Shown here: piece by piece, positions 16,549-37,161 of the stretch
Position numbering within the stretch: the first letter of the stretch is position 1
Layout of the letters: every line of letters begins with the position of its first letter
Source: Candidatus Chloroploca mongolica
GTDB taxonomy: Bacteria > Chloroflexota > Chloroflexia > Chloroflexales > Chloroflexaceae
Direction: 5' to 3'
DNA: 64,000 nt
Assembly (NCBI RefSeq): GCF_004762035.2
Contig: NZ_SIJK02000023.1
Coordinates: 5,410 to 69,409 of the forward strand
The notes under the pieces: generated by a model
Told to the model about the DNA's origin: nothing
The model's database searches: none
Seen by the model: only the letters and a program-made list of their open reading frames with translations
Made by a program: the position numbers and the translations under genes

Positions 16549-18165
16549 ATGACCTGTTGTGTTCAAGGTGTTCCCACCCCTCAGACAATCGCCCGGTTTC
16601 CCTGCTGGATCTGGCTGGTCACGGTATGCGTGCCCGTCGTGCTGCTCACCGGCTGTGGTCAGGCCCCCCTGACCTACCGCGATGCCCAGGCCACCGCGTT
16701 GGCGGGCGGATGCTGGCCGCCAACGCTGCCTACCCCGCCCCTGGTGACCGTGACCCCCGACCCCGCCCTGCCCCCGCCGGACGCGGCCCCGGCCCCGTCG
16801 CTGCCCACCACCACGCCCTTCCCACCCTGCCCCCCGGTGGCCGGGGCCACCGCCGTCCCCTGGCCGACGCCCGTCCCAGCCCCACCGCCCTATCCCACGC
16901 TGGCCCCGGCCCCGTGGCAGGTTGCCCAAGATCAGGGAACGACCCTCCACCTTCCACATGCCATTCTCAGTCTCGATCTGGCGGTGCATCCTACCGAAGA
17001 CTGGGCCGCAGTGGCAGCGGTCGTCTGGTCGGGCAACGACGATCCCGAGCGGGTCATGCTGACGGTGTTGCATCCAACGACCCGCCGCTGGAGCCTCGCC
17101 CGCCAGGTGGATCTTGGCCCGGCCCGCATTGGCCGCTATAGCCGCACCGTGGCCGTCGCGATCACGGGTGATCAGCAGGTGCATGCACTCTGGGGCATGA
17201 GTGATCCCGATCCGACCACCGGGGCGCCGGTCAGCCTCTGGGCGAGCAGTAGTCCTGATTTCGGGACAACGTGGGCCGCGCCGGTGCGGATTGCCGAAGG
17301 CTGCCGACGGGTCAATGCCGTCGTCGCGGGCCTCGACGGCACCTTGGTCGCCCAACTGGTCTGTGATGACGGAGCCGAGTCAACACTGGCAATGGTAACC
17401 CGCACCGCGAGTGGCACCTGGCTGCCCGTCGAATATCTCGCGGCACCGGTGCGCTTTTACAGCGAGGGGAGCCTTGTTCTGGTGCCAGACACGGTGGCCC
17501 CGATGATCGTTGGGTTGGCGATGACCGACGTGGGCGGTCAGGCCCGCGGGTATCTGCTACGCCGCACGCTGCATGGAACCGAACCGTGGCAGATCGAGGG
17601 GATCGTGCTGACAAATCCCTGGTCAGCTCCGATGAGCCCACGCATGTGGAACGTCAACAGCCTGATGGCGGTGCGTCCAGGCGGGGTCTTGCTGACCTTC
17701 ACCTGGACAGATGCCGATGCTGGCTATGCCTATGCGCTCACCTCGCATGATGGCGGTGACACCTGGGGGGCACCCGAAGCGCTTGCGGCTCCCTTTGAAG
17801 CAACTGGGGCAATCATTGCGGCCCTTCCCGCCTATGAACCGATGACTGACCGCCTGGTGGTGGTTTGGGATTGTTGTGCTGGCGGCATCTTACGGAGAGC
17901 TCCGACCACCCACTATGCCAGTTGGCAACCTGCTGGGCAAGGCCCCTGGGTGCCGCTGGGCGACCCTGCGCCGATCCCACTCATCCTTGGCTCACGTGCG
18001 GTGGGGTTGACGGTTGGGGCGCAGGCCTGGCAGAGCACGCGGGTCTGGGTGGCCTGGATCGAGGGTATGAGTCAGGTTGAAGTACGGGCGGTACCGGTTA
18101 CGCGCCTACTGCCTGGCCTACCAACCGGAACCGGGCTGTCCACCAGCCGAGCACAGATCTGGTGA
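16549..18165 (+). CDS. Lipoprotein with Pro-rich stalk and Asp-box (sialidase-like) propeller
   Basis: About 538 residues. A signal peptide ends in a lipobox (VVLLTGC), so the mature protein would be lipid-anchored outside the membrane. A very Pro/Ala/Thr-rich stalk (about 45-130) is followed by a beta-propeller-like region with Asp-box texts such as SPDFGTTW and SHDGGDTW, found in sialidase-fold and BNR proteins. No catalytic triad of sialidases is evident, so a binding or scaffolding role on the cell surface is more likely. An ATG at 16528 is an alternative start; neither has a strong ribosome site. It opens the transfer operon and overlaps the leader of the wall-hydrolase gene. Confidence 0.6.
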   Translation: MTCCVQGVPTPQTIARFPCWIWLVTVCVPVVLLTGCGQAPLTYRDAQATALAGGCWPPTLPTPPLVTVTPDPALPPPDAAPAPSLPTTTPFPPCPPVAGATAVPWPTPVPAPPPYPTLAPAPWQVAQDQGTTLHLPHAILSLDLAVHPTEDWAAVAAVVWSGNDDPERVMLTVLHPTTRRWSLARQVDLGPARIGRYSRTVAVAITGDQQVHALWGMSDPDPTTGAPVSLWASSSPDFGTTWAAPVRIAEGCRRVNAVVAGLDGTLVAQLVCDDGAESTLAMVTRTASGTWLPVEYLAAPVRFYSEGSLVLVPDTVAPMIVGLAMTDVGGQARGYLLRRTLHGTEPWQIEGIVLTNPWSAPMSPRMWNVNSLMAVRPGGVLLTFTWTDADAGYAYALTSHDGGDTWGAPEALAAPFEATGAIIAALPAYEPMTDRLVVVWDCCAGGILRRAPTTHYASWQPAGQGPWVPLGDPAPIPLILGSRAVGLTVGAQAWQSTRVWVAWIEGMSQVEVRAVPVTRLLPGLPTGTGLSTSRAQIW

Positions 18166-18176
18166 GGGGGCAACCG

Positions 18177-19571
18177 ATGCGCACATGGTTCAATCTCGCA
18201 TCCTCAGCACGGCCAGCATCGCGCCGATCACCGCGCTGGCCGTGCTCACGACGGGGGACCTGGCTTGGTCTGCTGGCCTTGCTCCTGACCATGCCAACCA
18301 TTCTGGCCTGTACCTCAGGGCTTGCGATTACACAGGCCCCCCGCTGGGCGTGTCCAAGCCCGACACCGTTGCCTTATGGCGAGACCGGGCCGGTCAAAGA
18401 GGTCATTCGCCATACTCGCCCGGTGACCGAGGGTGGAGATTGGGACGAGCAGATCTTCTATGAACTGTGGGAGCAAGAGTATCCCGAGGCGGCTGGTCGG
18501 CCCTTCCCTTCACCGACGCCCTACGCCAAAACGGGTCGCGCCTATGTCTTTGGGCAACGGGTCGAAATCTGGCCTTTCCATGTGCTGGTGACCGCCAGCG
18601 CTGGGCCCGAGATCACCCGGGCCAGCGCTGCCGCCAATGCGGTTCAGCTCTATCACGTGACGATCACCTGGGTCAATCATACCGTCGAGGCCGTGCCGAT
18701 CAACTATGCCCAGCAGGTGCGCCTCCGGGCGCTTACTACCCCCACGGGACAATTGCTTAGCCAGGCCTATTGGGGTGTGACCGCCGAGGCGTTGAGCGTG
18801 AGTGCGTTGCCTGTGCTCCCTACGACCATTCCTCCGGGTGAAAGCAGTGTCCAGATTCCCATCCTTGGACCAGTTGGGACACCCCATACGGTCGAGCTCG
18901 AAGTCGCGACGGCACCCGTGGGGATCTTTCTTCTCCCTACCACAACCACCCTACCCGGGTTGCCGACATCGACGCCGCAACCAACGCTGACGCCTACCCC
19001 ACGGCCGCTCAATACCGGATTGCACGCCCCGGGGCGCGAGACGGTGACGGTACAGTGGAGCAATGCCCGCTGGGTGCCGCCTGGGGCTGAGCCGTGTCTT
19101 GATCCTGGAGCCCTGACCGATTGGGACGATGGCCGCGCCAACGCAGCAGCCGCGACAGACCTGATCATGCCAGCCCCGCCGGGGGCCAGCCGTGTGGTGC
19201 AATTGGCGCTCGCGCAGGTTGGCAAACCATACATCTGGGGGGCCAAAGGCCCGGAGGCCTTTGATTGCTCCGGCTTAATGACCTGGGTCTATGCCCAGAT
19301 CGGGCTCAGGATCCCGCATGGCACGGCAGGCCAGTGGCCGGGGATGCAACCCGTCGACCACGCGGCCTTGCAGCCCGGTGACCTCGTCTTTTTTGCAATT
19401 GCTGGCGGACGCATTGACCACGTTGGCATGCTCGTCGGCGACCTCAATGGCAATGGCCGCTGGGATATGGTGCATGCCGCCAGCCCTGGGTTGGGAGTAC
19501 GGGTAGATTACGACATTTTTGAGTCGCCTTATTACGCTCCGCGCATCCGTGGGATGCGCACCGCCCGCTGA
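18177..19571 (+). CDS. NlpC/P60-family cell-wall hydrolase lipoprotein of the transfer system
   Basis: The 464-residue protein has a lipoprotein signal (ILAC, Cys45), a middle beta-rich domain resembling extracytoplasmic DUF-type folds, a Thr/Pro linker (about 265-285) and a C-terminal NlpC/P60 domain. The catalytic Cys364 lies in FDCSGLMTW and His415 in GRIDHVGML. Such enzymes cut peptide stems of peptidoglycan and in conjugation systems open the wall for the channel, the job VirB1 does in other systems. The ATG at 18177 follows GAGGGG. The start lies 11 bp beyond the stop of the preceding gene, and the next gene follows after 12 bp. Confidence 0.8.
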   Translation: MRTWFNLASSARPASRRSPRWPCSRRGTWLGLLALLLTMPTILACTSGLAITQAPRWACPSPTPLPYGETGPVKEVIRHTRPVTEGGDWDEQIFYELWEQEYPEAAGRPFPSPTPYAKTGRAYVFGQRVEIWPFHVLVTASAGPEITRASAAANAVQLYHVTITWVNHTVEAVPINYAQQVRLRALTTPTGQLLSQAYWGVTAEALSVSALPVLPTTIPPGESSVQIPILGPVGTPHTVELEVATAPVGIFLLPTTTTLPGLPTSTPQPTLTPTPRPLNTGLHAPGRETVTVQWSNARWVPPGAEPCLDPGALTDWDDGRANAAAATDLIMPAPPGASRVVQLALAQVGKPYIWGAKGPEAFDCSGLMTWVYAQIGLRIPHGTAGQWPGMQPVDHAALQPGDLVFFAIAGGRIDHVGMLVGDLNGNGRWDMVHAASPGLGVRVDYDIFESPYYAPRIRGMRTAR

Positions 19572-19583
19572 AAGGATGCCCCT

Positions 19584-20312
19584 ATGCGGAAGCACCATTG
19601 GATGATTGTGACGGGCCTGCTGATCTTCGGAGGGGTGCTGGTTACGGTGAGCCGAGTCGTTGCGCACGAGCCGGTGCCGACTCTGGTGGTCTCCTTGCAC
19701 GGGGAGGATGCCCAGCCGCTGCGTGGGGCAACCATCCGCCTGACCGATGCACGTGGAAGCACCATGCTGGCTGAGGGTATCACCGATACGACAGGCCATG
19801 TTGCATTCGGCCCCGTCCCTGTGGCGCACGTGCGCGTCCAGGTCAGCGGCACGCTGGCCGATGGAACCACTTTGTGGCAGCCAGGCCAGGATGCCCTGGG
19901 CGTCCTGGTATTCCTGGGCCGTCCCACCGTAGTCTTGCCGCTCCGAAGCGCTGCGTCCGGGCTGATCTTGCCCGATCCCGAAACGGCACTGGCGCTCGAA
20001 CTCGGCCCTATCCTCACCACGACCCCACAACCAGCGGCCGATGAACAAACCGCCCTGGCCCCTGCGCCGCCCATCACGCTTGTCGCTCCTGCTGACCAGC
20101 GCGATCGCACGCTGCCTGCCGAGTCGTTGGTGCTGCCATCTGACGTGGCAATGTCGTCGAGCACCGCTCCACCGCTCCTCGTGGATGATCCGGTTACAGA
20201 ACCATCGCTCGCGGCCCTACCAATCTGGGGAGGCGTCTTGCTGCTGGGGTGCCTGGGACTGGGGCTGGGGGTGACCTTGCTCGTGCATCACCAGAGCCGG
20301 AGGTTCCTATGA
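19584..20312 (+). CDS. Envelope protein with Ig-like/carboxypeptidase-regulatory-like domain and C-terminal membrane anchor
   Basis: The 242-residue protein has an N-terminal signal or anchor helix (about 7-27), a beta-rich region (about 32-115) with the text ATIRLTDARG and TDTTGHVAF typical of Cna-B or carboxypeptidase-regulatory-like folds, a Pro/Ala-rich linker, and a C-terminal hydrophobic helix (about 213-234) followed by Arg residues. This is a sortase-free anchor layout. The stop overlaps the start of the VirB6-like gene (ATGA), indicating coupled translation. Function unknown; a surface or channel-stalk role is inferred from context. Confidence 0.55.
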   Translation: MRKHHWMIVTGLLIFGGVLVTVSRVVAHEPVPTLVVSLHGEDAQPLRGATIRLTDARGSTMLAEGITDTTGHVAFGPVPVAHVRVQVSGTLADGTTLWQPGQDALGVLVFLGRPTVVLPLRSAASGLILPDPETALALELGPILTTTPQPAADEQTALAPAPPITLVAPADQRDRTLPAESLVLPSDVAMSSSTAPPLLVDDPVTEPSLAALPIWGGVLLLGCLGLGLGVTLLVHHQSRRFL

Positions 20313-22504
20313 TGAGCCAACCTCGCAACAGGCGGCGGCTGTTTGGGGGCCTGCTGATCCTACTCTTTGGCGGACTGAGTATCAGTCTTCCAGCGACCAG
20401 TTGGGCGGCTGGATGTGGCCCGCTCGATCTTGGGGCATGCGTCGATGCGGCGCAGTACAGCTTCTGGTTTGGCCTCACCGCTCTGGGTTGGTCGATCAAT
20501 CGCACCCTGTTGATGCTTGCCTATCAACTTGACACCTTTCGCTGGTGGCTGGTTGAAATTGCCTTCACCAGTGCCTATCAGGTACTCATTGATGTCATTG
20601 ATCCCTTGCTTGTCCCGGTAGCGTCAATCGCGATCATCATTGGTGGCCTTGCGCTCTTGCTCTTCCCAATCTTTGGCCGTCTAGAGGTGGTCAAACTTCG
20701 CCATGCCCTCGCCTGGGTTGTGCTGGCCCCGGTGCTCTTGACGATCAGCGGCCCTCTGATCGTCCAGACCGAAGCCCTGCGCGAGGATCTTGGGGCTGCG
20801 CTCTTCAATGGGGTGAGCAGTCTGGCTCCTGGCGCAATCTTTGGGGTCACGGGCTCGGACATGGCCGAAGTCACGCCGCTCTATCCGTCCAATCCATGTG
20901 GAACATCGCTGACTCGTCGCAGCGGGGTCGCCACGCTCCGTATGGATGATCTCGCGGCGGCCCTGCTCTGGGCCAATGCCCAGGATATTCATTGCCCTGA
21001 GTATGCCGGGCCGAGTATTGACATCCCCGATAGCTTCTACCTGGCCGTCCCCGAAGGCCCCGGCTATGCGACCGGTCAGGCTGTGGGCACGATGGATCAA
21101 CCGGCAGAACGTGCGAGTGCCGTTGATGCGATCCAGCGCGGTGCCGTGCGCACGGCACTCGGTCTGTTGCCGAGCAGCCTGGCGGTCATTGATGCGCTGG
21201 TGCAGTTTGTCTTTGCCCTGTGTCTGCTTGTGCTCTGGATCGGCCTCCCCCTGGGCTTGCTGGTGGTCTTTTTTACCCAGACAAACCAGCCTGTCACCGG
21301 TCTCTTCCGGCGCGTACTCAGTGTTTTGCAAGTCAGTTGGTCGAGCAGCGTGGTGTTGGGCCTGCTCTTTGCCTGTTTGCTTGCTGCCGCCGAATTGCGC
21401 AATGCGGCCGCCTATACGGGCTTTGCCATCGGCGGTCTGCTTGTGACCAGTTTTATCCTGATGGTCGCAGTCAGCACATTGAGCACGTGTCTCCGGACCA
21501 TCAATGATGCGCTTGCGGTCGCCACCGGCCTGAACCCAGCGGAGGGTCTCGCTCATGCACGTGGTCTCGCAACGGCAACAGCCGGAATCGGGATGGCAGC
21601 CCTGACCGGGGGCGCGGGGGTCGCCTTGACTGGCGCGATTGCGGCACGGCAGACCGGCAGTGGCCGCTATGCAGCCGGCGCGATGCTTGGGCGGGCCACA
21701 CCCCTTGCGCAGGTGGGCGAGATTGCGCAGGCCTTTGGCGCAACAGATGAGGTAACCAGTGGTCTGGTGACCGGAGGGCGTAGTCAGCGCGGAGGGCTCC
21801 GTAGCCTTGCGGCGCTCACGGGCGCTGATGCACGCCGTCGAGATGCCAGCGGGCGGACGCCGGGTGACTATGTGACCGAACGGCGTGTTGCCCAAATGCT
21901 GGCCCATCCTCCTGATCTTGGCACTACCTCACCTCCACCCTTGCCTGATGATGATGCACTGGTGGCTGCAATGCGGCAGCGTGCAGCCTTGCCTGCAGAG
22001 AACCGTGCTCCACGGTATGGCTACCTAGGCGACGCCTGGAACCGCCTGAGCAGCCAGGTTCACCTTCCCCATGCAGGAAGTTCAGCAACCTCAGGTGAGC
22101 CAGCAACCGCCTCTGTGGCGATGCACCTTGATCCCAATCAGCGCACCATCGTCTGGTCGCCACCCGTCGCGCCAGACGATCTGCCTCCCCAACGGCTGAG
22201 CCTTCCGCGCCATCAGGCCCGGATCCCTCGTTTGCTCACGCTGGGCTACCACGTCCAGCACGAAGACGATCAGACCATCACGATCTGGCAACCCAATCCG
22301 CCAGCACAACCCCATCCGCCTGCGCTGACGAGCCTTGATCAACACATTCACCTCGTCGAAGCCGGGGCCATGCTGGGCAACCTGGACGAGCTCCGGGCTG
22401 AACGACAGCGGCTCCGCCAGGGGTTGCCCACGCCACCAACGGCGCCTCGTCAGGGAAGGGCTCAGCCACCGGCAGCAACGAGTAGCGAAGGAGAAAACGC
22501 ATGA
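20309..22504 (+). CDS. VirB6/TrbL-like polytopic channel protein
   Basis: A 731-residue membrane protein with an N-terminal signal-like helix, five or six further helices (clusters near 50-75, 95-145, 295-335 and 345-410), a Gly/Ala-rich segment near 440, and a long hydrophilic C-terminal half rich in Pro, Arg and Gln. This architecture, next to VirB2/3/4-like genes, fits the VirB6/TrbL inner-membrane channel component; sequence motifs for that family are weak, so the call rests on topology and neighbours. The ATG at 20309 has GGAGG at 20299-20303 and overlaps the previous stop. The stop at 22504 overlaps the next start. Confidence 0.6.
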   Translation: MMSQPRNRRRLFGGLLILLFGGLSISLPATSWAAGCGPLDLGACVDAAQYSFWFGLTALGWSINRTLLMLAYQLDTFRWWLVEIAFTSAYQVLIDVIDPLLVPVASIAIIIGGLALLLFPIFGRLEVVKLRHALAWVVLAPVLLTISGPLIVQTEALREDLGAALFNGVSSLAPGAIFGVTGSDMAEVTPLYPSNPCGTSLTRRSGVATLRMDDLAAALLWANAQDIHCPEYAGPSIDIPDSFYLAVPEGPGYATGQAVGTMDQPAERASAVDAIQRGAVRTALGLLPSSLAVIDALVQFVFALCLLVLWIGLPLGLLVVFFTQTNQPVTGLFRRVLSVLQVSWSSSVVLGLLFACLLAAAELRNAAAYTGFAIGGLLVTSFILMVAVSTLSTCLRTINDALAVATGLNPAEGLAHARGLATATAGIGMAALTGGAGVALTGAIAARQTGSGRYAAGAMLGRATPLAQVGEIAQAFGATDEVTSGLVTGGRSQRGGLRSLAALTGADARRRDASGRTPGDYVTERRVAQMLAHPPDLGTTSPPPLPDDDALVAAMRQRAALPAENRAPRYGYLGDAWNRLSSQVHLPHAGSSATSGEPATASVAMHLDPNQRTIVWSPPVAPDDLPPQRLSLPRHQARIPRLLTLGYHVQHEDDQTITIWQPNPPAQPHPPALTSLDQHIHLVEAGAMLGNLDELRAERQRLRQGLPTPPTAPRQGRAQPPAATSSEGENA

Positions 22505-24144
22505 CAACGCACCTTCGAAGAATGATCCGTATGCTCCCTGCATTGCTGCGCGCCGTTGGCTTCCTCTTGCTTCTGGGCCTCCTAACGATCCAGCCAGCGC
22601 ACCTGGCGGCCCAGATCGCCCAAGCAGAAACGCCGATCCTGGGCGCACCAACAATCGCCACACCGGTCATGACCGCGCCGGCGACGCCATCGGCACCGAT
22701 GCCCATGCCATCGTCTGAAGAAACGGGAGCCCGACGCGCCCCAACGTCAACGCCAGGGACAGCGGCGCTTGAACAGCCCCATACCTGCGAACCGCATCAG
22801 ACACGCTCAAGCATATGCGCACAGCACATCGATCCCGAACTGCATCCAGATCCTCTGGAGAATAACTGGCATCCCGAGTCAGCCGCGCCTATTGCCGTTG
22901 GCGTCATCTACGACCTGAATTTTGTTTGTCCGGTACCCAACGGTTGTCCCGGAGGCGATCATGACTACCTGCGTGTGACGGTCAAAGGTGGCACGCCGTA
23001 CCTCATCACGACCTTTGATCTGGGGCCAGGGGTTGATACGGTACTGGATCTCTTTTGGGGCGATCCGGAATTTCCCGTGATGAGCAATGATGATGCCTTC
23101 CCAGGACGGCACTTTCTCAGCACCATCCGTTGGGAAGCGCCAGACGATGGTGAGTTGCTCATCCGCGTGGCTCCGCGCACCGGGGGCGACACTCCGCACG
23201 TGGCTGAACCCGAGGCAGGAACATACCGGTTTGTGATCGCCTTGGACGGAAGTGCGCTTGCCCATCAACTCGACGACCGGATCAGGCAAGAGGCCGGTGT
23301 TCCAACTCCGACCCCGCCGCGCATACCGACAAGCATACCCTCGGCTGTTGGCGCACCATCGGTTGGCTCAGCGCAGACCGGGGGCAACCAGCCTGTTGCC
23401 GCGCCAACGGCGGTGCCTGCCCCCGTACTCACGCAAGATGCCCCCCAGGGGCGGGCCATGGTGCGTACCTCAACGGCGCTGCGTGATGGCCCCGGGGCCA
23501 CGCAGACCCTGCTGACTATGCTTCCCGAAGGCACCCGGCTTACCTTGCTTGGTCAAACTCAGGGCCGTTGGGTGCGCGTTCAGCCCGATGATCTCGTGCT
23601 CCCCGGCTGGGTGGCAGGGATGGATCTAAGCAAGCTCCCTGACGAAACCCCGCTTCGCGCCTCCGGCATGCTGACGACCACTGAACCCGTGCGCAGTCCA
23701 CCCGACCCGACGACAACGACCATTGCCGGTGAGGGCACGCCGCCACGCGATCCGGCCCCGACCTCATTGCCAGGGCTTTCGACAACGGGAGCAACCGTCA
23801 GTCTCGTCGAGCGCCTCGAGCCACTGCCACCACCGCCGCCACCTGCACCAGTCCAGCGGATCTCTCGCTCGCTCACGCTCCAGGTCGAACGCAGCCCGGA
23901 CTCAGACCGAACACCTTCACCAGGCCATAGCGCATTCGCGGGCCTTCGCGTCCAACTCGTCACGGTCTTTGGTGACATCCTGGCCGAAGCTGTAACCCCG
24001 GCATCAGGGCAAGTCACCCTGACAACCGAAGTCCTGCCAGCAATGGCTGTGCTTGTCCAGATTCCAGCGGCGGGCCTGCGCTTTCCGCTTGACCCAACCA
24101 CCACCAGCCTCCGGCTGGTCTTGCCCACGGAGGTACAGCCATGA
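22501..24144 (+). CDS. Secreted protein with PPC-like and SH3b domains
   Basis: The 547-residue protein has a signal peptide, a Pro/Thr-rich spacer, a beta-sandwich resembling bacterial pre-peptidase C-terminal (PPC) domains (about 115-255, with DHDYLRVTV and DTVLDLFWG), a second spacer, a bacterial SH3 domain (about 316-378, VRTSTALRDGPG to GWVAG) and a C-terminal beta-domain. SH3b domains often bind peptidoglycan. It probably decorates or spans the wall near the transfer channel. Translation is coupled at both ends by ATGA overlaps. No enzymatic motif is visible. Confidence 0.65.
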   Translation: MTTHLRRMIRMLPALLRAVGFLLLLGLLTIQPAHLAAQIAQAETPILGAPTIATPVMTAPATPSAPMPMPSSEETGARRAPTSTPGTAALEQPHTCEPHQTRSSICAQHIDPELHPDPLENNWHPESAAPIAVGVIYDLNFVCPVPNGCPGGDHDYLRVTVKGGTPYLITTFDLGPGVDTVLDLFWGDPEFPVMSNDDAFPGRHFLSTIRWEAPDDGELLIRVAPRTGGDTPHVAEPEAGTYRFVIALDGSALAHQLDDRIRQEAGVPTPTPPRIPTSIPSAVGAPSVGSAQTGGNQPVAAPTAVPAPVLTQDAPQGRAMVRTSTALRDGPGATQTLLTMLPEGTRLTLLGQTQGRWVRVQPDDLVLPGWVAGMDLSKLPDETPLRASGMLTTTEPVRSPPDPTTTTIAGEGTPPRDPAPTSLPGLSTTGATVSLVERLEPLPPPPPPAPVQRISRSLTLQVERSPDSDRTPSPGHSAFAGLRVQLVTVFGDILAEAVTPASGQVTLTTEVLPAMAVLVQIPAAGLRFPLDPTTTSLRLVLPTEVQP

Positions 24145-25931: not shown

Positions 25932-26165
25932 ATGGGTGAAATTAACACCATCTTTACCAGCCTGCAAACGAACCTCTTGACCCTGGTTATTCCCATTGGC
26001 GTTGTTGGGTTCGTGCTCTGGGGCCTGGCGTTACTCTTGACGCCGATCATCCCCGATTGGGGGCAAACCATGCGGGGCTACTTCCAACGTGCGATGCTCA
26101 CCATTGCCTTTCTCGGCTTTGCGCTGACCTTCGTCACGGCGCTCTACGGACTTGGCGGCGGCTAG
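25932..26165 (+). CDS. Small two-helix membrane protein, VirB2-like pilin candidate
   Basis: The 77-residue protein consists of two hydrophobic helices joined by a short polar loop (PDWGQTMRGYFQR) and ends in Gly-rich residues. Size, topology and position just before the PrgI-like and VirB4 genes match VirB2/TrbC-type subunits, but there is no obvious cleaved signal peptide. I chose the ATG at 25932 because GGAGGAGAG lies upstream; an in-frame ATG at 25893 is less likely. A hairpin follows (26191-26223). Confidence 0.55.
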   Translation: MGEINTIFTSLQTNLLTLVIPIGVVGFVLWGLALLLTPIIPDWGQTMRGYFQRAMLTIAFLGFALTFVTALYGLGGG

Positions 26166-26326: not shown

Positions 26327-26839
26327 ATGCCATATGACCAACTTGAAGAGATTCAAAATCGTCGGAGTGAGAAGATCGCGATGTTCCTGACCCTGGAAAA
26401 CGCGGTCGGCCTGATCCTGATCGCCGTGCCCGTCTATCTGCTCAGTTATGGGCTCCCTGGGGTGTTGCGGATCAGCATCGTGCTCTTGGCAGCGCTGTTA
26501 GGCATTGGGTTGACCATCGATATCAATGGCCTTCCGCCCTATACCCGGCTGCTCTGGGCGGGGCGCGGCTGGCTCGAACGTCACCTGAATGGGGCTCGGA
26601 TTACGCCAACCCATCTGCCTGGCACCGCAAGCAGTGCGCCCCCGGATCGCCCGCTACCACGCGGTGGCCCCATTCGCCGTCGCCGGATGCCAACGCCCGT
26701 TGTCGCACCGAGCCGCAGCATACAGCCCACGCGCATCGGCTCCACACCACGCGTTGCGACCGAGCATCTGGCGCAGGCCAGTGAGCATTCCGAGCTGATC
26801 ATCAGCCACGATCATCACGCCCATGAGGGAGCATCATGA
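26327..26839 (+). CDS. VirB3/PrgI-like membrane protein
   Basis: The 170-residue protein has a short polar N-terminus, two adjacent hydrophobic helices (about 24-42 and 46-62), then a hydrophilic Pro/Arg/His-rich tail. PrgI-family proteins of this layout occur directly before VirB4/TraE ATPases in conjugation loci and fill the VirB3 role at the inner-membrane base. AAGGAG precedes the ATG by eight bases. Its stop overlaps the VirB4 start (ATGA). The long tail is unusual for VirB3. Confidence 0.65.
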   Translation: MPYDQLEEIQNRRSEKIAMFLTLENAVGLILIAVPVYLLSYGLPGVLRISIVLLAALLGIGLTIDINGLPPYTRLLWAGRGWLERHLNGARITPTHLPGTASSAPPDRPLPRGGPIRRRRMPTPVVAPSRSIQPTRIGSTPRVATEHLAQASEHSELIISHDHHAHEGAS

Positions 26840-29160
26840 GTAGTTTTCAACTCGGCAGCTTTCCGATTGAACAGATTCCCGACCTGCACGCGCTTGAGGC
26901 TCGCCTGGGCATGGCGGTGTCCAGTGTCCCGGTACCGATGCGCCTGCTGGTGTTCTCGCGTGCCTTTGATATGACCCCACCGATCACCCGTACCATACAA
27001 CGCCAACACACCCTCGAACGACTGGCCCTCATGGTCACGCCAGTGCGCGCCGCGCTACAAGCCAGGCTTGCAGGGACAACCTCGACGGATCCAGGGATCG
27101 CACTTCGTGCCCTCCCGGCTGATATCAGTGCAACGCTGCTTGATCTGCTGGCCCACGATCCGCCGATGCAGCAGGTCTTGCTCACAGCCGATCACACCAC
27201 CCACGCCGATGCGCCCGTGCTCTGGGCTGCACTCAATGAGGCCCTGGGCACCATCCTGCAAGCATTGACCTGGCGCATCCCGCTGGCGCATGCGATGACC
27301 CACTTTTATCGCCAACTCCAACAACGCCAATTGCGCACCGTTACCTTTGTGATGCATGCCTGGGAACCTCCAACCATGAGTCCCCAGACGATTGCGACCG
27401 CCTTGCAAGCTGCGCTCGGTCGCCGCGTGACGCAACTTGACCACTTGCCCTCGGTGCTTCCGGGGAGCTATCAAGAGCAGGCCCATCGCCTCATGCCCGA
27501 TGAGCCAGGCCATCCTTATCTTGCCGGGTTGCTCGCTTATGAAGTACGTGGGCGTTGGGACGCAACCACCTTGCATGATCTGCTGGATGACTCCTGCGAT
27601 GTGGCACTCGCGATTGACATTCATACCTACCCCCGCCATACAGCTACCCGCATTGCAGAACTTGCCTACAATGCCGCCCGTGTTGTGGCTCGCGACCATC
27701 AGGTTCTTGACCTCCGTGCCCATCGGGTTATGGATGCAGCAACCCAGATTCTTCAGCATCTGGTTGACCAGAGTCTCCATGCCGTCCAACTTGCGGTTCT
27801 CGTGAGTGGGACGACCGTTGAACAGCTCGATACGAACCTGGCATCCATCGCGACACGTCTGGGCAGCCAGATACGGTTTCTGCGCCCACCGAATGGGCAA
27901 CGCGAGTTACTCAAGCTCTGGAGTGGCACGCCACGTCAGCGCATTACCCTGCCCGTCAAACCGCACACCATGCTCTCGCAAGGGGTTGGGTGCTGTCTCG
28001 GTATTTTGGGCTCCCATCGTCCCTCCCGCACCGACGGCATCTTCTGGGGCATTGCCTATCCTGGGGGTGGCCCGCTCTTCTTTGATCTCTTCCGCAACCG
28101 GCAAGCCGCCCACACCGTCGTGATGGGCAAATCAGGGTTTGGCAAGAGCTTCTTTCTCAACATTCTTACGATGCGGAGTGCGCTGGAAGGCTATCGGGTG
28201 ATTGGCATTGATGCCTTTCACAATGCCCAACGCATTGCAGCAGCCACCGGTGGCGGTACCCGTTGTTATGCCCTCAGTCTGGAAGACACCTATAACCCGC
28301 TCGATATTCTGTTCACCGATGAGCATTGGCTGCCGAATCAGGTTGCCCAGGCGCAGCGCATGCTCGCGCTGATTCTCGGACGCACGATCAGTTCGGCCCA
28401 AGGTCAGACCAGCCAGTTTCTCCCCCGCATCTTCAGCGAAGATGAGGCGAGCTTGCTCGATCATGCACTCACCCAACTCTATCGTCCTCTGCATCCCGAT
28501 CTGCCACGCACCGAAATGCCCTTGCTCAGCGATCTGGTGACGATCCTTGCCGGTATGGGCGAACCTGAAAGCGCTGCCCTGGCCCGTAGTCTGCGCCTGC
28601 TGATCACCGAGACGAGTCGCGGCCAACGGTTCAACGGTCATACCACCGTGGACTGGCGCTTTGATGCCGATATTTCCTATTATGATCTTTCGGCTATTCC
28701 CCCAACCAGTCGCGTGCTCGCCAGTCTGCTCTTCCTCGACGGCGTCTTGCACTTTATGCGTGATCCTCAGCGCGACCTCAGTCGCCCGACCCTGCTGCTC
28801 ATCGACGAGTTCGGCTATCTGGCGCGGATTGAAGCCTTTGCCCGCGTCGCGGCAGAGATCAGCAAAGTCGCCCGCAAATACAGCCTCGGCCTGGTGGCCG
28901 TCGATCAGAGTCCGCAGATCTTCCTCGAAAGCCCCGAAGGCAAAGACATCTTCGACAACGCCCGCGCCCGGGTGCTCTTTCGCATGGATGCCCCGGCCCA
29001 GGCTCGCATCCACGAGGCGATCCCTGAATTACGCCCGATGCATCTGGATTATCTGGCGCATGCCGAGCCAGGCCATGCCGTGGTTGTCGTAGATAACGAT
29101 GTCTATTGCATGTATGTGCAACCAAATGCCCACGAAGCAATGACTCTGGGAAACTCATGA
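26836..29160 (+). CDS. VirB4/TraE-type conjugation ATPase
   Basis: The 774-residue protein is the main energy-supplying ATPase of a type IV secretion system. An N-terminal VirB4-type domain (about 1-400) is followed by the motor: Walker A GKSGFGKS at 431-438, Walker B LLLIDEFG (D657, E658), and a downstream sensor text LVAVDQSPQIF. Length is within the family range. It sits at the inner membrane and works with the VirB3-like protein encoded just upstream (ATGA overlap) and the VirB6-like protein. This is the most secure proof that the operon encodes a conjugation apparatus. Confidence 0.92.
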   Translation: MSSFQLGSFPIEQIPDLHALEARLGMAVSSVPVPMRLLVFSRAFDMTPPITRTIQRQHTLERLALMVTPVRAALQARLAGTTSTDPGIALRALPADISATLLDLLAHDPPMQQVLLTADHTTHADAPVLWAALNEALGTILQALTWRIPLAHAMTHFYRQLQQRQLRTVTFVMHAWEPPTMSPQTIATALQAALGRRVTQLDHLPSVLPGSYQEQAHRLMPDEPGHPYLAGLLAYEVRGRWDATTLHDLLDDSCDVALAIDIHTYPRHTATRIAELAYNAARVVARDHQVLDLRAHRVMDAATQILQHLVDQSLHAVQLAVLVSGTTVEQLDTNLASIATRLGSQIRFLRPPNGQRELLKLWSGTPRQRITLPVKPHTMLSQGVGCCLGILGSHRPSRTDGIFWGIAYPGGGPLFFDLFRNRQAAHTVVMGKSGFGKSFFLNILTMRSALEGYRVIGIDAFHNAQRIAAATGGGTRCYALSLEDTYNPLDILFTDEHWLPNQVAQAQRMLALILGRTISSAQGQTSQFLPRIFSEDEASLLDHALTQLYRPLHPDLPRTEMPLLSDLVTILAGMGEPESAALARSLRLLITETSRGQRFNGHTTVDWRFDADISYYDLSAIPPTSRVLASLLFLDGVLHFMRDPQRDLSRPTLLLIDEFGYLARIEAFARVAAEISKVARKYSLGLVAVDQSPQIFLESPEGKDIFDNARARVLFRMDAPAQARIHEAIPELRPMHLDYLAHAEPGHAVVVVDNDVYCMYVQPNAHEAMTLGNS

Positions 29161-29201
29161 GCAAGCAGGTCTATTCCGCAACCCAGCCGAAAGGAGATCT
29201 T

Positions 29202-30527
29202 ATGGGTCATATCCCTAACATGGGTTCCGGTCATCTCTGGCGCATCACCATTCCTGAATCACGACCGATGGTGCCAGCGAATGATGCCGCCTGGTGCGCG
29301 AGTCTACGCCGTCACTTGAGCCACGCGCCCCTGACGAGCGTGCGTGTACGCATTGGCTCAACTGAGCGCTGGTATGTTGTCAGTGAGGGATGTCGCGGCT
29401 GTGTACGTGACGCCTGTGAGCTTGGCTGCCGTGGCGAATTTCTGCGCCGCATGCTTGCTGAACATTGGCCCGATCTGCGGCTCCACCTGATCGCCAACGG
29501 CTTGGCCGTGCGACCATATACTCGTGTGGTTGGCGCTCTCCCATCACGCACGAGCGATCTCCAGGCCATTCTACGCGCACCGTGGCACGAGGCTCGCTGG
29601 CAGGTGCAGTGGCATACCCGCCGCTCAAGCCCCGACCTGCACGTCAATCTCATCCTGGCCGTCGGCGACGATGGGCCGGATCCCATCACCGTACTGCGCC
29701 AGGCGGGCTGGCACGTTCTTCCACTCCCAGGACTACTGGCGCAACGGTGGATGACGCCACCGCTTCCCTCAGGGTTGCCCATCAGTGGTCGGTGGCGACA
29801 GCAGCCTGTGCTCTTGCTTCCAGAAGACAATGGCTTCGCTATCGAGTCAACCAACCGGCCAAGTAGCCCGGCTCCCGCACAGCAGCTTGAGCACGCCTCG
29901 AACCCCACCGACCCAGACTCACCTGAGCTCCCGGCCACCCCTGAACCCGCGCAGCAGCTTGAGCACGCCTCGAACCCCACCGACCCAGACTCACCTGAGT
30001 TCCCGGCCACCCCTGAACCCGCGCAGCAGCTTGAGCAGCCAACAACCTCTGACGTGCATGGGGCACCTGATCGCCTTGATGCGACGTTGACCACCTGGCT
30101 CACTGCAATCCTGAGCCAACCAGCGGAGCCTTTGGCTCCACCTGAGGCGCAGTCCAGTTTGGGGCAAACATCCCCGTGGCCCGCTGGCCCCGGCAGCCTG
30201 GCTGACCCCGCTGCCCTCGGCACCGTCGTCGCCCAACTCGTCCAGGAACCCAGCTTTCAATCCTCCCGCAAAGGCCAATCCGGGTTGTCCAAAAAGCGCC
30301 TCGTCCGGCTCGCCCATCCCAGCCTCAACGACAGCATCGCCCGCATCCTGCTCGTCTGGTTTGACCGCGCCGGGGTGCTCGCCCCGCCCGACAGCCCCAG
30401 CCTGCCCTGGCGCACGCCCCGCCCCTTGGCCGTCACTGACCTGACCGCGCTCGCCGCCGCGTTGCAGGCCACCCCCCTGCCCACCGCCGACGATGCGCTG
30501 GCTGCCTTTGGAGGTGACCCGTCATGA
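29202..30527 (+). CDS. Transfer-operon protein with Cys cluster, repeat linker and C-terminal winged-helix-like domain
   Basis: About 441 residues. The ATG at 29202 is favoured by AAGGAG at 29191-29196; an in-frame ATG at 29157 overlaps the VirB4 stop and is an alternative. A four-Cys cluster (C64, C67, C72, C76) could bind zinc or an Fe-S cluster. A Pro/Glu/Gln-rich middle contains two full copies and a partial third of a 24-residue repeat. The C-terminal region (about 355-430) looks like a small helical or winged-helix domain. The stop overlaps the coupling-protein start. Position between VirB4 and VirD4 suggests an adaptor between substrate and channel; the family is unknown to me. Confidence 0.5.
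   Translation: MGHIPNMGSGHLWRITIPESRPMVPANDAAWCASLRRHLSHAPLTSVRVRIGSTERWYVVSEGCRGCVRDACELGCRGEFLRRMLAEHWPDLRLHLIANGLAVRPYTRVVGALPSRTSDLQAILRAPWHEARWQVQWHTRRSSPDLHVNLILAVGDDGPDPITVLRQAGWHVLPLPGLLAQRWMTPPLPSGLPISGRWRQQPVLLLPEDNGFAIESTNRPSSPAPAQQLEHASNPTDPDSPELPATPEPAQQLEHASNPTDPDSPEFPATPEPAQQLEQPTTSDVHGAPDRLDATLTTWLTAILSQPAEPLAPPEAQSSLGQTSPWPAGPGSLADPAALGTVVAQLVQEPSFQSSRKGQSGLSKKRLVRLAHPSLNDSIARILLVWFDRAGVLAPPDSPSLPWRTPRPLAVTDLTALAAALQATPLPTADDALAAFGGDPS
29880..30040 (+). repeat. 72-bp in-frame tandem repeat
   Basis: Unit starts at 29880, 29952 and 30024 (partial), nearly identical at DNA level, encoding a 24-residue Pro/Glu/Gln linker unit. High DNA identity implies recent expansion; copy number may vary between strains without frameshift. 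Confidence 0.85.
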
Positions 30528-33500
30528 ACCCACCGGCCTCGCCCCGCACCCCACGCAGCACGGCCCGCGCCCCGGGCCGTGGGAACCGCCCCCAGCCCCC
30601 GCTCGGGCAACGGCCCCCCGCCCCGCCCTGGGCCAAGCTCGGCGCATGGGCGCTCCTGTTGCTCAGCCTCAGCCTGCTCATGGCCCAGGCCCCGCTCCTG
30701 CGCTGGGCCGACGCCCAGCCCGTGACCCGGCTGAGGCTGCCTGCCCCGGCCTTCCCCGGCCTGACGCCCCAGGGGGCCGCCGACACCCTGCCCAGCCCCG
30801 ATAGCCCACCCCGCCGGGACGAGGCTGACCCGCCCGCGGGCCTGGCAGCCCTCCCCAGCCTGGGCGCGGCCCTCATCCAGGCCATCCTGCGTGGCCCCGG
30901 ACGGCGCATCCTTGAAGCCCTCGTCGTGCTCGGCCTCAGCCTGCTCGCCCTCGAACTCATCCTCGCCGCCGGGGTGCTCGTTCTGCAGACCAGCCTCCGG
31001 CCCACCCACGGGCGGTTGACCCTGCGCGTGCGCGTGCCCATGCCCAGTGCCAGCCGTGCCACCCCCACCGGGGCCGACCTCTTCCGCGCCCTCCACCGCC
31101 AACTTCCGGTCAGTTCGCCCTGGTTGGGCCGCAGTCCCACCGTCAGCCTCACCATGACCGCCCACCCGGACGAACCCGTCACGCTGGGCGTCGTGCTCAC
31201 GGGCGGCACCGGCCCCCAGCGCGACCGCTGGGCCGCCGCGCTGCGCAAGACCCTGCTCGGCCTGGCCCCCGACGCCGTGATCGAGCGCTGGCCCGACCCA
31301 CTCGCCGCCGCCGCCACCCCCGGCCGCACGCTCTGCCACGCCACCTGGCACCTAGCCCTGCCGCCCTGGTACCCCTTGCGCAACGCCGCTGACCACGACC
31401 CCGGCACCAGTCTCGTCGGGCCGCTCATGGCCGCCATGCAGCCCCGGCAGGGCGTGGCCCTCACCGCCGCCGCCCTGACCATCCGCCCGCGCCCGGATGA
31501 TAGTCACCTCGCCCGAGGCTGGCGGGCCAGCGCCCTCCGCCGCATGCTCCGCCTCAGCAGCAAACAGGACTACGCCCTCAGTCCCGATGGCCGCGCCCTC
31601 GAAAGCAAACTCGGCAGCCCCACCTACGATGTCACCTTGCAGGCCGTCGCCCTCGCCACCAGCCCCGCGACCGTCGCCCAGGCCCACGCCGAACTCGCCG
31701 AACTCCACGCCGTCTTGGGCCAGTACGCCGCCCGCAGTGGCAGTCGTGTCCAGCGCTGGGTCGGCGGCCAGCCCCAGACCCTCCCGCTCCCGCCGACGTT
31801 CTGCCCTGACCCGCCCGGCTGGGGGGCACGGCTCGGCATGCTCGCCCGCAGCCTCGGCGTCAGCCTGCTCGCCGGGTACGGCCTGCATGCCCTCCCCCTG
31901 CCGCCGACCAGCGTCCCCGCCCCCGTCCTGACGGGCCTGCTCGCCGCCGCCCTGGGCCTGGCAACGCTCGCCCTCCTGCAACGACGCAGCGGGCACCACA
32001 CCCGGCAGCGCCTCGCCACCCTGCTCGCCCGCCCCATGCGAGCCACGCCCCCCCCGGCCTGGCTCGGCCCCAGCGCCTGGCGCGGCCCGTGCATTCTCAG
32101 CCTCGACGAACTCGCCGGGCTCTGGCATCTGCCCACCGCCAGCCTGGGTTCCCTCGTGGCCTGGTTGCCCGCCCGCTATCTGCCGCCCCCGCCCGAGGCC
32201 TTCTGTGACCCGCCCGATCCGCACGCCACCACGCCCCCCGCCCGGCTGGTGCTCGGCATCGGACGCCACCGCGACGACCAGGACGCCCCCATCGGCCTGC
32301 CGCTGCGCGATGCCCGGCAAGGCCTGGCCTTCACCGCCCCGCCGGGGATCGGCAAAACCCAACTCGCCTCGAACCTGGCCGACCAGTTGCGGCCCTGTGG
32401 CTATACGCTCATCGACGGCAAAGGCGATGATGCGGGCAACCTCGCCACCGTCATGCGCACCCGCATCCCGCTCGCCGACGAAGGCCGCCTCATCGTGCTC
32501 GATGTCCTCGATGACTGGCCCGTCGGCCTGAACCCGCTCGCTGAAGTTGACCCTACTGATCCAGCTGCACTTGATCAGGTACTCGGCCAGATGGAAGCCA
32601 TCTTCGCCCGCCTCGACCCCGAAACCTGGGCGCGTGCGCCCCGCATGAAGAACTATCTCCGCAAGGCCACCTTGCTTGTTCTGGCTGGGGAAGCGCATCC
32701 CACCATTGCCCACATCAAGCAAGCCCTGCTCGATGCGCGCTACCGCGAGCAACTGCTGCCCCATTGTCACAATGTCGAGGTGCGCGACTTCTGGCACATC
32801 GAGTTTCCGCAGATTGGCGAGCAGCAAAAAGTGAGTCGTGATGCCTTGATCAGCCGCTTCGATATGCTGCTCGACTCCGAACTCACCCGCTATCTCTTCA
32901 ACCAGATGACCCCAGCCCTTTCGTTTCGCACCGTGATCGCCGAACGTCAGATCGTGCTCGTCCCCTTGCCCCATCGCGCCCTCGGAGCACTGGCCGGGCC
33001 TGTTGGCATGCTGCTGTTTCAAGCCTTGATGCGCGCCGCCTTCAGTCGTCCTGGCACCGACCTCACCCGCCCCGAGTATGGCTTCATCGGCGACGAGTTC
33101 CAGGTGCTCGTCGAACACTGTGATACCAAAGATATACGCGATGCCTTGACCCAGGTTCGGGCCTTCGGCATCGTGACCATTATTGCGAATCAGGTTCACC
33201 GCCAATTGGGCGATCTTGCCGATTATGCCCTGACCGCCATTTCCAACCGCATTCTCCTGCGCACCCAGGAACCCGACGCAACCATGTATGCGCGACACTA
33301 TGCCGAGAGTGGGATCACGGCATCGGATATTGCTGGGCAAGACCCGCGTGACCATCAATATGCATGGATTGGCGTTCATGGACGCCTGACCCGCCTCTTC
33401 TCAATGCGCCCACTGCCCTGGCGTCAACCATTGACGCTCGACGTGCCACCCTATGATGGCCCTCCATGGCAGACCGTGCCGCCAACAGCCTCGCCTACGC

Positions 33501-33997
33501 CTCTGTTTGACCGCGTCGTGTGTGACCTGATGTATGGTGATCATCAGCTCCATCGCGAGGCCATCGTTGCTCAGTTAGCCGCCTGTGATGACGAACGCTG
33601 GCATATGCTACTTGCACGCTGGGATGCCATTCGCACCACCCATTGGGCCTACATTCGCGCCCATCCCGGTTGCATTCCCGATACACCCACGCGCCAGCAA
33701 TGGCTTTCCCGGCTCATCGCCGCACGCCCCCGTCTCCTGGCAATGGCTGAGTATGCGCGCATTCGACACGCCTTGACTGGTGATCCCGCTCAAGCTGGCA
33801 GCCTATCGGTACCCCGCTATCCTGGCAGCAGAGCGCAGAGTCATAGCCTACGGCACAACGATGAAGGTCGCGAGTCCCGTGCCACCCAACAACCCCATCA
33901 TCAAGAACTCGAGCAACGTCAACCACCTCGCCTGATCCGCGCCGAACCTGATGATGTTAAGCACCCGTACGAAATGGAGGAACCCCATGTCTCATGA
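30524..33997 (+). CDS. VirD4/TraG-type type IV coupling protein
   Basis: The 1,157-residue protein carries N-terminal transmembrane segments (about 43-61 and 127-153), an extended region, more hydrophobic helices near 440-485, then the motor: Walker A PPGIGKT (606-612), LIDGKGDD, Walker B GFIGDEF (D857, E858) and TraG-C-like texts such as ANQVHRQLGDL. Coupling proteins bring the relaxase-DNA complex to the channel. The family is usually 500-800 residues; the extra length lies in the N-terminal half and a C-terminal tail. The first half is strikingly GC-rich compared with the second; the change falls near nt 32530. Its start overlaps the preceding stop (ATGA). Confidence 0.88.
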   Translation: MNPPASPRTPRSTARAPGRGNRPQPPLGQRPPAPPWAKLGAWALLLLSLSLLMAQAPLLRWADAQPVTRLRLPAPAFPGLTPQGAADTLPSPDSPPRRDEADPPAGLAALPSLGAALIQAILRGPGRRILEALVVLGLSLLALELILAAGVLVLQTSLRPTHGRLTLRVRVPMPSASRATPTGADLFRALHRQLPVSSPWLGRSPTVSLTMTAHPDEPVTLGVVLTGGTGPQRDRWAAALRKTLLGLAPDAVIERWPDPLAAAATPGRTLCHATWHLALPPWYPLRNAADHDPGTSLVGPLMAAMQPRQGVALTAAALTIRPRPDDSHLARGWRASALRRMLRLSSKQDYALSPDGRALESKLGSPTYDVTLQAVALATSPATVAQAHAELAELHAVLGQYAARSGSRVQRWVGGQPQTLPLPPTFCPDPPGWGARLGMLARSLGVSLLAGYGLHALPLPPTSVPAPVLTGLLAAALGLATLALLQRRSGHHTRQRLATLLARPMRATPPPAWLGPSAWRGPCILSLDELAGLWHLPTASLGSLVAWLPARYLPPPPEAFCDPPDPHATTPPARLVLGIGRHRDDQDAPIGLPLRDARQGLAFTAPPGIGKTQLASNLADQLRPCGYTLIDGKGDDAGNLATVMRTRIPLADEGRLIVLDVLDDWPVGLNPLAEVDPTDPAALDQVLGQMEAIFARLDPETWARAPRMKNYLRKATLLVLAGEAHPTIAHIKQALLDARYREQLLPHCHNVEVRDFWHIEFPQIGEQQKVSRDALISRFDMLLDSELTRYLFNQMTPALSFRTVIAERQIVLVPLPHRALGALAGPVGMLLFQALMRAAFSRPGTDLTRPEYGFIGDEFQVLVEHCDTKDIRDALTQVRAFGIVTIIANQVHRQLGDLADYALTAISNRILLRTQEPDATMYARHYAESGITASDIAGQDPRDHQYAWIGVHGRLTRLFSMRPLPWRQPLTLDVPPYDGPPWQTVPPTASPTPLFDRVVCDLMYGDHQLHREAIVAQLAACDDERWHMLLARWDAIRTTHWAYIRAHPGCIPDTPTRQQWLSRLIAARPRLLAMAEYARIRHALTGDPAQAGSLSVPRYPGSRAQSHSLRHNDEGRESRATQQPHHQELEQRQPPRLIRAEPDDVKHPYEMEEPHVS

Positions 33998-34088
33998 TCG
34001 CCAGGATGCGCCTCTTGCGCTCCATGCACAAGAAGAGGAACTGCCCATGAATTGGGGTACCCAAGGGCAGTGCGCATATCGCAGGCAC

Positions 34089-34329: not shown

Positions 34330-34395
34330 CGCTTCGTTTGCGGTTCGTCTGGGCTTCGTTGCCGCTTCGTTTGCGGGTCGCTGACGCTTCGTTTG
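34330..34395. repeat. 11-bp tandem repeat array, iteron-like
   Basis: Six consecutive 11-bp units start at 34330, 34341, 34352, 34363, 34374 and 34385. Units 1, 4 and 6 are identical (CGCTTCGTTTG) and the others diverged, with a weak seventh at 34319. An 11-bp period is close to one DNA turn and not a multiple of three, which argues against coding and for a protein-binding array on one face of the helix, as at replication or transfer origins. Confidence 0.6.
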
Positions 34396-34487
34396 CCCTG
34401 TTTTTCCGCGTCCTGATGCAGAAGGGCCAGATCGACGCTCCGGCAGGGGCGATTGAAAGACGGGTTTTTCCGCTTTTTTCTCCGACC

Positions 34488-35396
34488 ATGGACGACACCA
34501 TTGATGTTCACAACGTGCTGATCTCCCTCGCCTGGCTCGGCGAACTCAGCACCAGCCACATCCACCGCCTGTGGATGGGTACGCACACCCTGCGAGCCAC
34601 CCAGTATCTGCTGCGTGGGCTGCAAGACGAAGGCATCATTGCGCGGCGACAATGGGCACGCTGGTTACCGCATTGCTCAACGCCGGTGCGACAGGCAGCG
34701 CTCTGGTCAGTGACCCGCAAGGGACGTGACCTGATCCGAGCACACGACCAGTATCCACCCGAGTATAAAGAGCCCCGTTCACGCAAGATGGCCCTGCACG
34801 ACTCAACGACTAGCGAGGCGATTGTGCGCATGATTGAACTTGGCCGTGCCTACAACTATGGCAATCAACGAGGCCTCAGCGGGCTCTATATCGAACGCGA
34901 AGTCCGCCTCGATCCCGCCAGGAGTCGTCCACTGATGGATGCCCTGATCATCATTACGCTTGGTGGCACGTTCGACCATCCCAACCTCGTGCCCTGGTCA
35001 CGCGACCCAACCTTGCCCGGCGAACGCCGCGTGCGCTACGCCCTTGAAAACGACCGCGACACCGAACCCGCGACCGTGATTGCGGGCAAAGCAGTCCATT
35101 ATCAGCACGCCGGTACCCCCGCCTGGGAACAACGCTACGGCCGCTTTCCCTTGCCGATCTGGCTTACCCCATCGACCCGGCGGCTCGAACACATCTTGAA
35201 TCTCTGGCGCGACGCCTGGCCCGTGGGCAAATGGATTATGACCACGGATGCCTGGCTGCGCGATGATTATTGGCTTGAATGTGACCGGGGGTTGGTCAGC
35301 GAGCGCAGTCTGTTCTCCGCTCCACCACGCCTTCGCCCCACCCTGAGTCCGGAAGAGGAGGAACGCCTACAGCGTATGTTACGGATAAAGCGCTAA
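34488..35396 (+). CDS. Replication-relaxation family protein
   Basis: About 302 residues from the ATG at 34488. The N-terminal part (about 1-90) is a winged-helix DNA-binding domain (LGELSTSHIHRLW, then a turn and ALWSVTRKGRDLI), followed by a core typical of replication-relaxation proteins of mobile elements, with EREVRLDPARSRPLMDALI. In such elements these proteins act in plasmid or element replication and DNA relaxation. The same frame is open upstream to an ATG at 33987 that has a ribosome site (GGAGG), but 33987-34487 reads through the palindromes and 11-bp repeats and does not look like protein, so I use the internal start. No ribosome site is seen at 34488; the true start is uncertain. 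Confidence 0.6.
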   Translation: MDDTIDVHNVLISLAWLGELSTSHIHRLWMGTHTLRATQYLLRGLQDEGIIARRQWARWLPHCSTPVRQAALWSVTRKGRDLIRAHDQYPPEYKEPRSRKMALHDSTTSEAIVRMIELGRAYNYGNQRGLSGLYIEREVRLDPARSRPLMDALIIITLGGTFDHPNLVPWSRDPTLPGERRVRYALENDRDTEPATVIAGKAVHYQHAGTPAWEQRYGRFPLPIWLTPSTRRLEHILNLWRDAWPVGKWIMTTDAWLRDDYWLECDRGLVSERSLFSAPPRLRPTLSPEEEERLQRMLRIKR

Positions 35397-37160: not shown

Positions 37161-37161
37161 C

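Follow-up and report, generated by a model that had tools for sequence, protein, structure and literature searches.

We analysed a 64,000-nucleotide stretch of the genome of Candidatus Chloroploca mongolica (positions 5410-69409 of contig NZ_SIJK02000023.1, here C76; below, the window), which belongs to an assembly of 6.3 Mb in 160 contigs. It was found that a block of thirteen genes on the plus strand, 16528-36780, very probably encodes a conjugation module: a type IV secretion system (T4SS) that has a MOBC relaxase and an envelope set conserved within Chloroflexia and specific to this lineage. DNA transfer by this system is predicted from sequence. This reading is built on gene content, conserved gene order, the insertion site and the homology of VirB4, the coupling protein (T4CP), the relaxase, the wall hydrolase and the integrase. 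An integrative element of this Candidatus Chloroploca species carries the operon as its conjugation module. Since it contains VirB1-, VirB2-, VirB3- and VirB6-like proteins along with a MOBC relaxase, the system is a T4SS and no new kind of system; it appears to be an undescribed, lineage-specific variant of the monoderm T4SS, with a core that would work like that of other monoderm T4SSs. Its unusual feature is a fixed Chloroflexia set of four envelope proteins: the Asp-box lipoprotein, the membrane-anchored Cna-B-like protein, the PPC/SH3b protein and a single-pass protein whose modelled exterior is all beta with tandem Ig-like domains.

A previous sequence-only reading of this DNA had described an operon anchored by VirB4 and VirD4 homologues; these two assignments and the gene positions, all in one plus-strand block, were confirmed. 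It had also described the remaining proteins as impossible to assign to known transfer systems. That claim fails in view of the VirB-like proteins and the relaxase named above, the VirB2-like gene (25932-26165) having been missed; its proposal of an undescribed system stands only for the lineage-specific variant. In the literature that we searched, with subscription journals mostly outside the coverage, no account of a conjugation machine from Chloroflexota was met with, and a 2025 review of T4SSs makes no mention of Chloroflexota (PMC12857230). Conjugation in this phylum thus seems not to have been described previously.

Core proteins and relaxase

Pfam and NCBIfam scans identified NlpC/P60, SH3_3, VirB4, Replic_Relax and the integrase; the Asp-box and Cna-B-like matches were weaker and the other proteins had no family match. 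The Asp-box, SH3 and Cna-B-like domains and the wall hydrolase announced by the sequence-only reading were all present, the hydrolase being of the NlpC/P60 type (Table 1). In a PHROGs search the integrase was the sole match. The identity of VirB4 is secure, as both a family profile and the solved structure 4ag5 were matched; the AAA_10 profile gave no match in the first Pfam pass over the host genome because the VirB4 of the operon is too diverged for it. The VirD4-type protein was recognised by its profile match to DotL and by the Embleya T4CP, and the T4CP at the matching place on the Herpetosiphon plasmid pHAU02 scored above the TraG-D_C and TrwB cut-offs. This ATPase is encoded by one gene here and is divided into two genes in other lineages.

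The VirB2, VirB3 and VirB6 proteins were assigned by position and topology and are best regarded as probable. The VirB2-like gene sits between the genes of the single-pass protein and the VirB3-like protein, as it does in relatives, whose proteins at this place match T4SS_pilin (0.003) and TrbC/VirB2 (0.012 and 0.11), all below the cut-offs. The VirB3-like protein has two hydrophobic segments and a conserved place and matched no Pfam profile. The resulting order VirB2, VirB3, VirB4 is that of R388. For the VirB6-like protein, 6-8 membrane segments were predicted in the window protein and its close homologues; no Pfam or NCBIfam profile matched it and a PDB profile search gave no meaningful match. 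Its length falls within the range of 700-900 amino acids reported for VirB6 of the mating-pair formation (MPF) class MPF_FA (PMC12857230). The NlpC/P60 hydrolase carries a lipobox in 9/9 homologues. As the sequence-only reading had noted for VirB7, VirB9, VirB10 and VirB11, no operon protein matched a Pfam or NCBIfam profile for these, nor for VirB8. That reading had also placed a protein with a Cys cluster and a winged helix between VirB4 and VirD4; the protein does contain Cys residues, but profile scans matched neither a winged helix nor any other family there, and the winged helix was seen instead in the relaxase after VirD4.

This protein after VirD4 matched PF13814 with 25.7 bits in the genome search, just above the cut-off of 25.3 (the longest open reading frame (ORF) alone scored 22.3), and its homologues matched at 5.5e-13 and down to 3e-18. 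A PF13814 relaxase was present in all seven genomes tested, and the HUH-type families PF03432, PF08751 and PF03389 were absent from the same genomes, while controls were positive for all three. PF13814 corresponds to the MobC family of CONJscan according to a published survey (PMC5357655), and MOBC relaxases have been described as akin to restriction endonucleases (PMC11389934, PMC12857230). The AlphaFold2 (AF2) model (pTM 0.81) shows a winged helix and an alpha-beta-beta-beta-alpha-beta core, as reported for MOBC; residues E187, D189 and Y205 are the same in all 14 sequences compared. In the fold search the winged helix was clear, and the restriction enzymes PaqCI and FokI were matched weakly (Foldseek E 0.03). 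From profile and model we take this gene to encode a MOBC-type relaxase, with nicking as its predicted activity. At two other loci, L062 (4492-6640) and L046 (4959-7197), tandem Replic_Relax genes follow the T4CP, and the second copies are without some of the otherwise conserved residues.

Insertion site and conservation in Chloroflexia

The transfer block continues beyond 35396 to the integrase and tRNA-Leu(TAA), the intact insertion target. The 3' end of the integrase gene runs through the attachment site into this tRNA gene. No left copy of the 77-bp attachment repeat lies within the window; an identical copy is located on a second contig, C68 (42982-43058). The congeners of the host include Candidatus Chloroploca asiatica B7-9 and Chloroploca sp. 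Khr17. In two congeners, the sequence to the left of the C68 copy is joined straight to the intact tRNA and the right flank of the window, forming an empty site. The element, which extends out of the window onto C68, thus begins at C68:43059 and ends at C76:43789, with one contig gap or more in between, and an integrase, attachment repeats at both ends and an empty site were all found.

Several genes were recognised at the left end of the element (C68:43559-51130): a helix-turn-helix Rep-like gene, an IstB/DnaC-like ATPase, an actin-like (ALP/MreB-like) segregation gene and an FtsK/SpoIIIE-type ATPase. Homologues of the Rep-like and FtsK-like genes recur on pHAU02 and in other T4SS-bearing genomes, which indicates a further DNA translocase in the element in addition to VirD4. 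In Chloroploca sp. Khr17 (G015:C16 7512-12738), the left end of a related element lies at a second place with the same attachment core, and an empty tRNA-Leu site is also present.

We found relatives of VirB4 in 31 of the 158 genomes of the class at E <= 0.001, some of them only distant. Around the closer ones the gene order recurs: Asp-box lipoprotein, NlpC/P60, Cna-B-like protein, VirB6-like protein, PPC/SH3b protein, Ig protein, VirB2-like protein, VirB3-like protein and VirB4, followed by T4CP and Replic_Relax wherever a locus extends so far, several loci ending at contig ends. It was seen in Chloroploca, Oscillochloris, other Chloroflexales and the Herpetosiphon plasmid, several genera and thus more than chance, with VirB4 at 26-49% identity. 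To keep the same order despite such divergence is a sign of selection.

The whole set is present on the closed plasmid pHAU02 of Herpetosiphon aurantiacus (CP000877), with Haur_5240 as VirB4, Haur_5233 as relaxase and Haur_5244 as Ig protein, and pHAU01 carries a more distant version of it. In pHAU02, a reverse-transcriptase gene, probably of a group II intron, lies between the VirB2- and VirB3-like genes, and an annotated M23/M23B peptidase occupies the hydrolase place, where relatives have NlpC/P60; these two genes are at L125 9353-11116 and 19030-20289. Both plasmids are listed in PLSDB as non-mobilizable according to MOB-suite; if the proposed function is true, mobility in Chloroflexota is under-counted. 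The set would then also offer a natural way to learn which parts of a T4SS are required when the envelope has one membrane, and pHAU02, with a named strain and a closed sequence, makes the system testable. We also noticed that two contigs labelled Candidatus Gracilibacteria, JAAUTF010000662 and JAAUTF010000665 (L098, L103), encode Chloroflexales-type VirB4 proteins with 42-45% identity to that of the window; they probably come from a mislabelled bin.

Envelope proteins, proposed mechanism and alternatives

Both a lipobox and Asp-box motifs were found in 9/9 homologues of the Asp-box lipoprotein. The Cna-B-like protein has hydrophobic segments at both ends and the same place in relatives. The place of the PPC-SH3b protein in the order is conserved, and the C-terminus of its homologue in one relative (G023) matched the Cna-B-like profile at 2e-4. 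The single-pass protein was modelled with AF2 (mean pLDDT 74.5, pTM 0.43), and a fold search covering mainly residues 349-560 showed that this part resembles tandem Ig domains, a common arrangement that is uninformative on function. When its profile was searched against 400 genomes of the phylum, strong matches were confined to genomes related to the host at order level, and four weak matches came from elsewhere. From the model, the protein would take the topological place of VirB8. The data did not support its identification as VirB8 itself: in the model the exterior consists of beta structure only and includes tandem Ig-like domains, and no NTF2-type domain was detected by Pfam or NCBIfam profiles or seen in the model, in which the first exterior domain (stretch 220-340) is of low confidence. 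In three relatives, a small lipoprotein that looks NTF2-like by eye and is a possible stand-in for VirB8 is encoded right after VirB4 (L040 13451-14035, L041 15466-15939, L036 13663-14127); the two that were tested had no Pfam match, and no such gene occupies that place in the window.

Judging by position and topology, the four envelope proteins may act in a transfer pathway as follows. The tyrosine integrase would excise the element from tRNA-Leu at the 77-bp repeats; the winged helix of the MOBC-type protein would bind the transfer origin and its PD-(D/E)XK-like domain would nick it. The VirD4-type ATPase would then hand the DNA over to a translocon in the inner membrane, made up of VirB3, VirB4 and VirB6-like proteins and the VirB2-like pilin, while the NlpC/P60 lipoprotein would locally open the wall. 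The Asp-box, Cna-B-like, PPC/SH3b and tandem-Ig proteins are proposed to stand in for the VirB8 and VirB7-VirB9-VirB10 components found in other systems, and may line or brace a channel through a single-membrane envelope, or hold the mating partner. The sequence-only reading had suggested a channel suited to the atypical Chloroflexota envelope. This is plausible, since no Omp85 was found in the host and six relatives, while 7/14 control genomes were positive, in keeping with an envelope of one membrane. The reading's description of a distinctive envelope gene set is likewise supported, and the set is conserved.

Several known systems share parts of this architecture. MOBC systems (pAD1 TraX, CloDF13 MobC) have a PD-(D/E)XK-type relaxase, the family also predicted here, and streptococcal integrative mobilizable elements pair a PF13814 relaxase with a VirD4-type coupling protein (PMC5357655, PMC12857230, PMC11389934); here, however, the relaxase, with nicking only predicted, is tied to a Chloroflexia-specific mating channel. 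Members of MPF_FATA (pCF10, Lacticaseibacillus pMGB0734-1) also have a VirB3-like gene just upstream of virB4, a wall hydrolase, a VirD4-type T4CP and no annotated VirB9, VirB10 or VirB11, but they differ in their annotated HUH-type relaxase, whereas the window has a MOBC type, propeller, PPC/SH3b and Ig proteins, and no recognised NTF2-type VirB8. A cluster on an Embleya linear plasmid (PrgI, VirB4, VirD4, replication-relaxation, NlpC/P60) has the same core including the MOBC-type relaxase and is likewise non-mobilizable according to MOB-suite; unlike in the Chloroflexia set, a search there for the propeller, Cna-B-like, PPC/SH3 and Ig genes yielded no homologues. The T4SS of Patescibacteria, compared by description, is monoderm with a VirB2-, VirB3-, VirB4- and VirB6-type set (PMC12102498), whereas the Chloroflexia set lies on mobile elements with a relaxase.

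These likenesses raise the question of whether the operon is an ordinary member of MPF_FA or MPF_FATA, with its other parts too diverged to be recognised and its extra proteins being cargo or adhesins. The core roles and the hydrolase suit monoderm systems (PMC12857230), the VirB6-like length suits MPF_FA and the Embleya cluster shows such a core; nevertheless, we regard this as unlikely. In all four builds of a VirB4 tree with seven references only, the Chloroflexia-group proteins clustered in a single clade, separate from those of pCF10, Lacticaseibacillus, Geobacillus and Embleya, with a separation support of 93-100. R388, F and pLS20, the sole FA reference, lay on long branches; with this thin sampling, the tree shows a separation from the FATA-like set and no deep position. 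Membership in MPF_FATA is thus not supported by the VirB4 sequences, which fall outside the pCF10-type clade among these few references. Moreover, distant genera share a fixed order in which envelope genes stand among the core genes, and the seven reference plasmid loci contained no clear match to the four envelope proteins (one weak BNR match, 0.018). The sequence-only reading had held that the system would be a described one if every unknown protein strongly matched a known T4SS family, such as those of the FA or FATA types, with the gene order also agreeing; the outcome lies half way, as the core fits by role and the envelope proteins match no reference locus examined. A further reading, conceivable but held only tentatively, is that the system is an MPF class of its own, restricted to Chloroflexia, with Ig-, SH3b-, Cna-B- and propeller-domain proteins forming the structure across the wall for which other systems use NTF2-type VirB8 (and VirB9/10).

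Propeller, Ig and SH3 domains resemble parts of surface proteins and could serve cell contact in a T4SS that is fixed in the host and secretes proteins or effectors rather than conjugating. This seems very unlikely to us, as an integrase and a tRNA attachment site adjoin the operon, the sites are empty in congeners, the relaxase lies beside the T4CP in the loci reaching that far, and the set is patchily spread and also found on plasmids. Loss of transfer ability in a decayed element is hardly more probable: the adjoining HsdR-type gene (12552-13160) is a mere fragment and contigs are broken within the element, but all transfer genes are open and the order is kept in divergent homologues.

Some observations weigh against conjugation by an intact integrative element, which we nevertheless prefer. 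The element is divided over two contigs with its middle unbridged, so that its length is only an estimate: about 117 kb or more, provided that both contigs consist of element to their ends. Near the empty site of another Chloroploca lies a close homologue of a gene pair found at C68:104-110 kb, so a rearrangement is possible. The VirB2, VirB3 and VirB6 calls lean on topology and place, their best profile matches being below curated cut-offs or absent, and no oriT was found, although it was not sought in detail.

Feature list and neighbouring genes

Four-base ATGA or GTGA overlaps occur at seven junctions of the block (Table 1), two of which require start codons later than those of the longest ORFs. 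The sequence-only reading had seen the ATGA overlaps correctly and had taken them as a sign of fixed stoichiometry, but they indicate translational coupling at most.

Table 1. Features of the transfer region, in window coordinates
Feature	Position	Strand	Evidence and remarks
Histidine kinase and response regulator	13211..16294	+	HATPase_c 2.5e-14, Response_reg 2e-8; just upstream; possible regulators
Asp-box lipoprotein (BNR-like, probably beta-propeller)	16528..18165	+	First gene of conserved block; BNR_2 2.2e-5, below cut-off; lipobox LTGC
NlpC/P60 wall hydrolase, lipoprotein, putative VirB1 role	18162..19571	+	NLPC_P60 1.2e-19
Cna-B/transthyretin-like protein, C-terminal membrane anchor	19584..20312	+	bMG3 1e-4, CarboxypepD_reg 5e-4, SpaA 0.01, all below cut-off
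VirB6-like polytopic membrane protein, 731 aa	20309..22504	+	Membrane segments, position, length; longest ORF starts at 20249
Secreted PPC-SH3b protein, C-terminal Cna-B-like domain	22501..24144	+	SH3_3 1.1e-6, above cut-off
Single-pass protein: helices in the cytoplasm, one membrane helix, two tandem Ig-like domains in an all-beta exterior (predicted)	24141..25847	+	AF2 model, fold searches, alignment
VirB2-like pilin, 77 aa, two hydrophobic segments	25932..26165	+	Place and sub-cut-off matches of relatives
VirB3/PrgI-like protein, 170 aa, two hydrophobic segments	26327..26839	+	Topology, position; ATGA overlap with virB4
VirB4 ATPase	26836..29160	+	NF045971 8e-26; PDB 4ag5 6.5e-24; tree
Soluble Cys-containing protein	29157..30527	+	Longest ORF starts at 29106; present in near group only
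VirD4-type coupling ATPase, extended N-terminal region	30524..33997	+	DotL profile 1.7e-5; Embleya T4CP 1.6e-55
MOBC-type relaxase (Replic_Relax), winged helix and PD-(D/E)XK-like core (predicted)	34488..35396	+	PF13814, see text
Conserved protein after relaxase	35470..36780	+	Same place in G023, G033 and G034 loci; without family match
Tyrosine integrase	36943..38502	+	Phage_integrase 1e-25; phrog_1 1e-76
Attachment site, right copy, 77 bp	38381..38457	.	Identical copy on C68
tRNA-Leu(TAA)	38403..38488	-	Insertion target; empty sites in two congeners

The kinase and response regulator pair upstream of the block had no clear counterpart at other loci. A large anti-phage defence island lies in or adjoins the element (C68:53450-110495 and window 1349-13160), with Druantia DruE-like and MzaA-like proteins, type I and IIG restriction-modification, type IV restriction, GmrSD, NACHT/STAND and JetD-like proteins. 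Outside the element, at 56240-58012, a HAD-type hydrolase is fused to a HerA-like ATPase with a distant match to the VirB4 profile. Two dispersed repeat families, at 39014-39123 and 39666-39772, are present in many copies in each of three Chloroploca genomes; one has a perfect 27-bp inverted repeat, and one overlaps the start of a predicted ORF.

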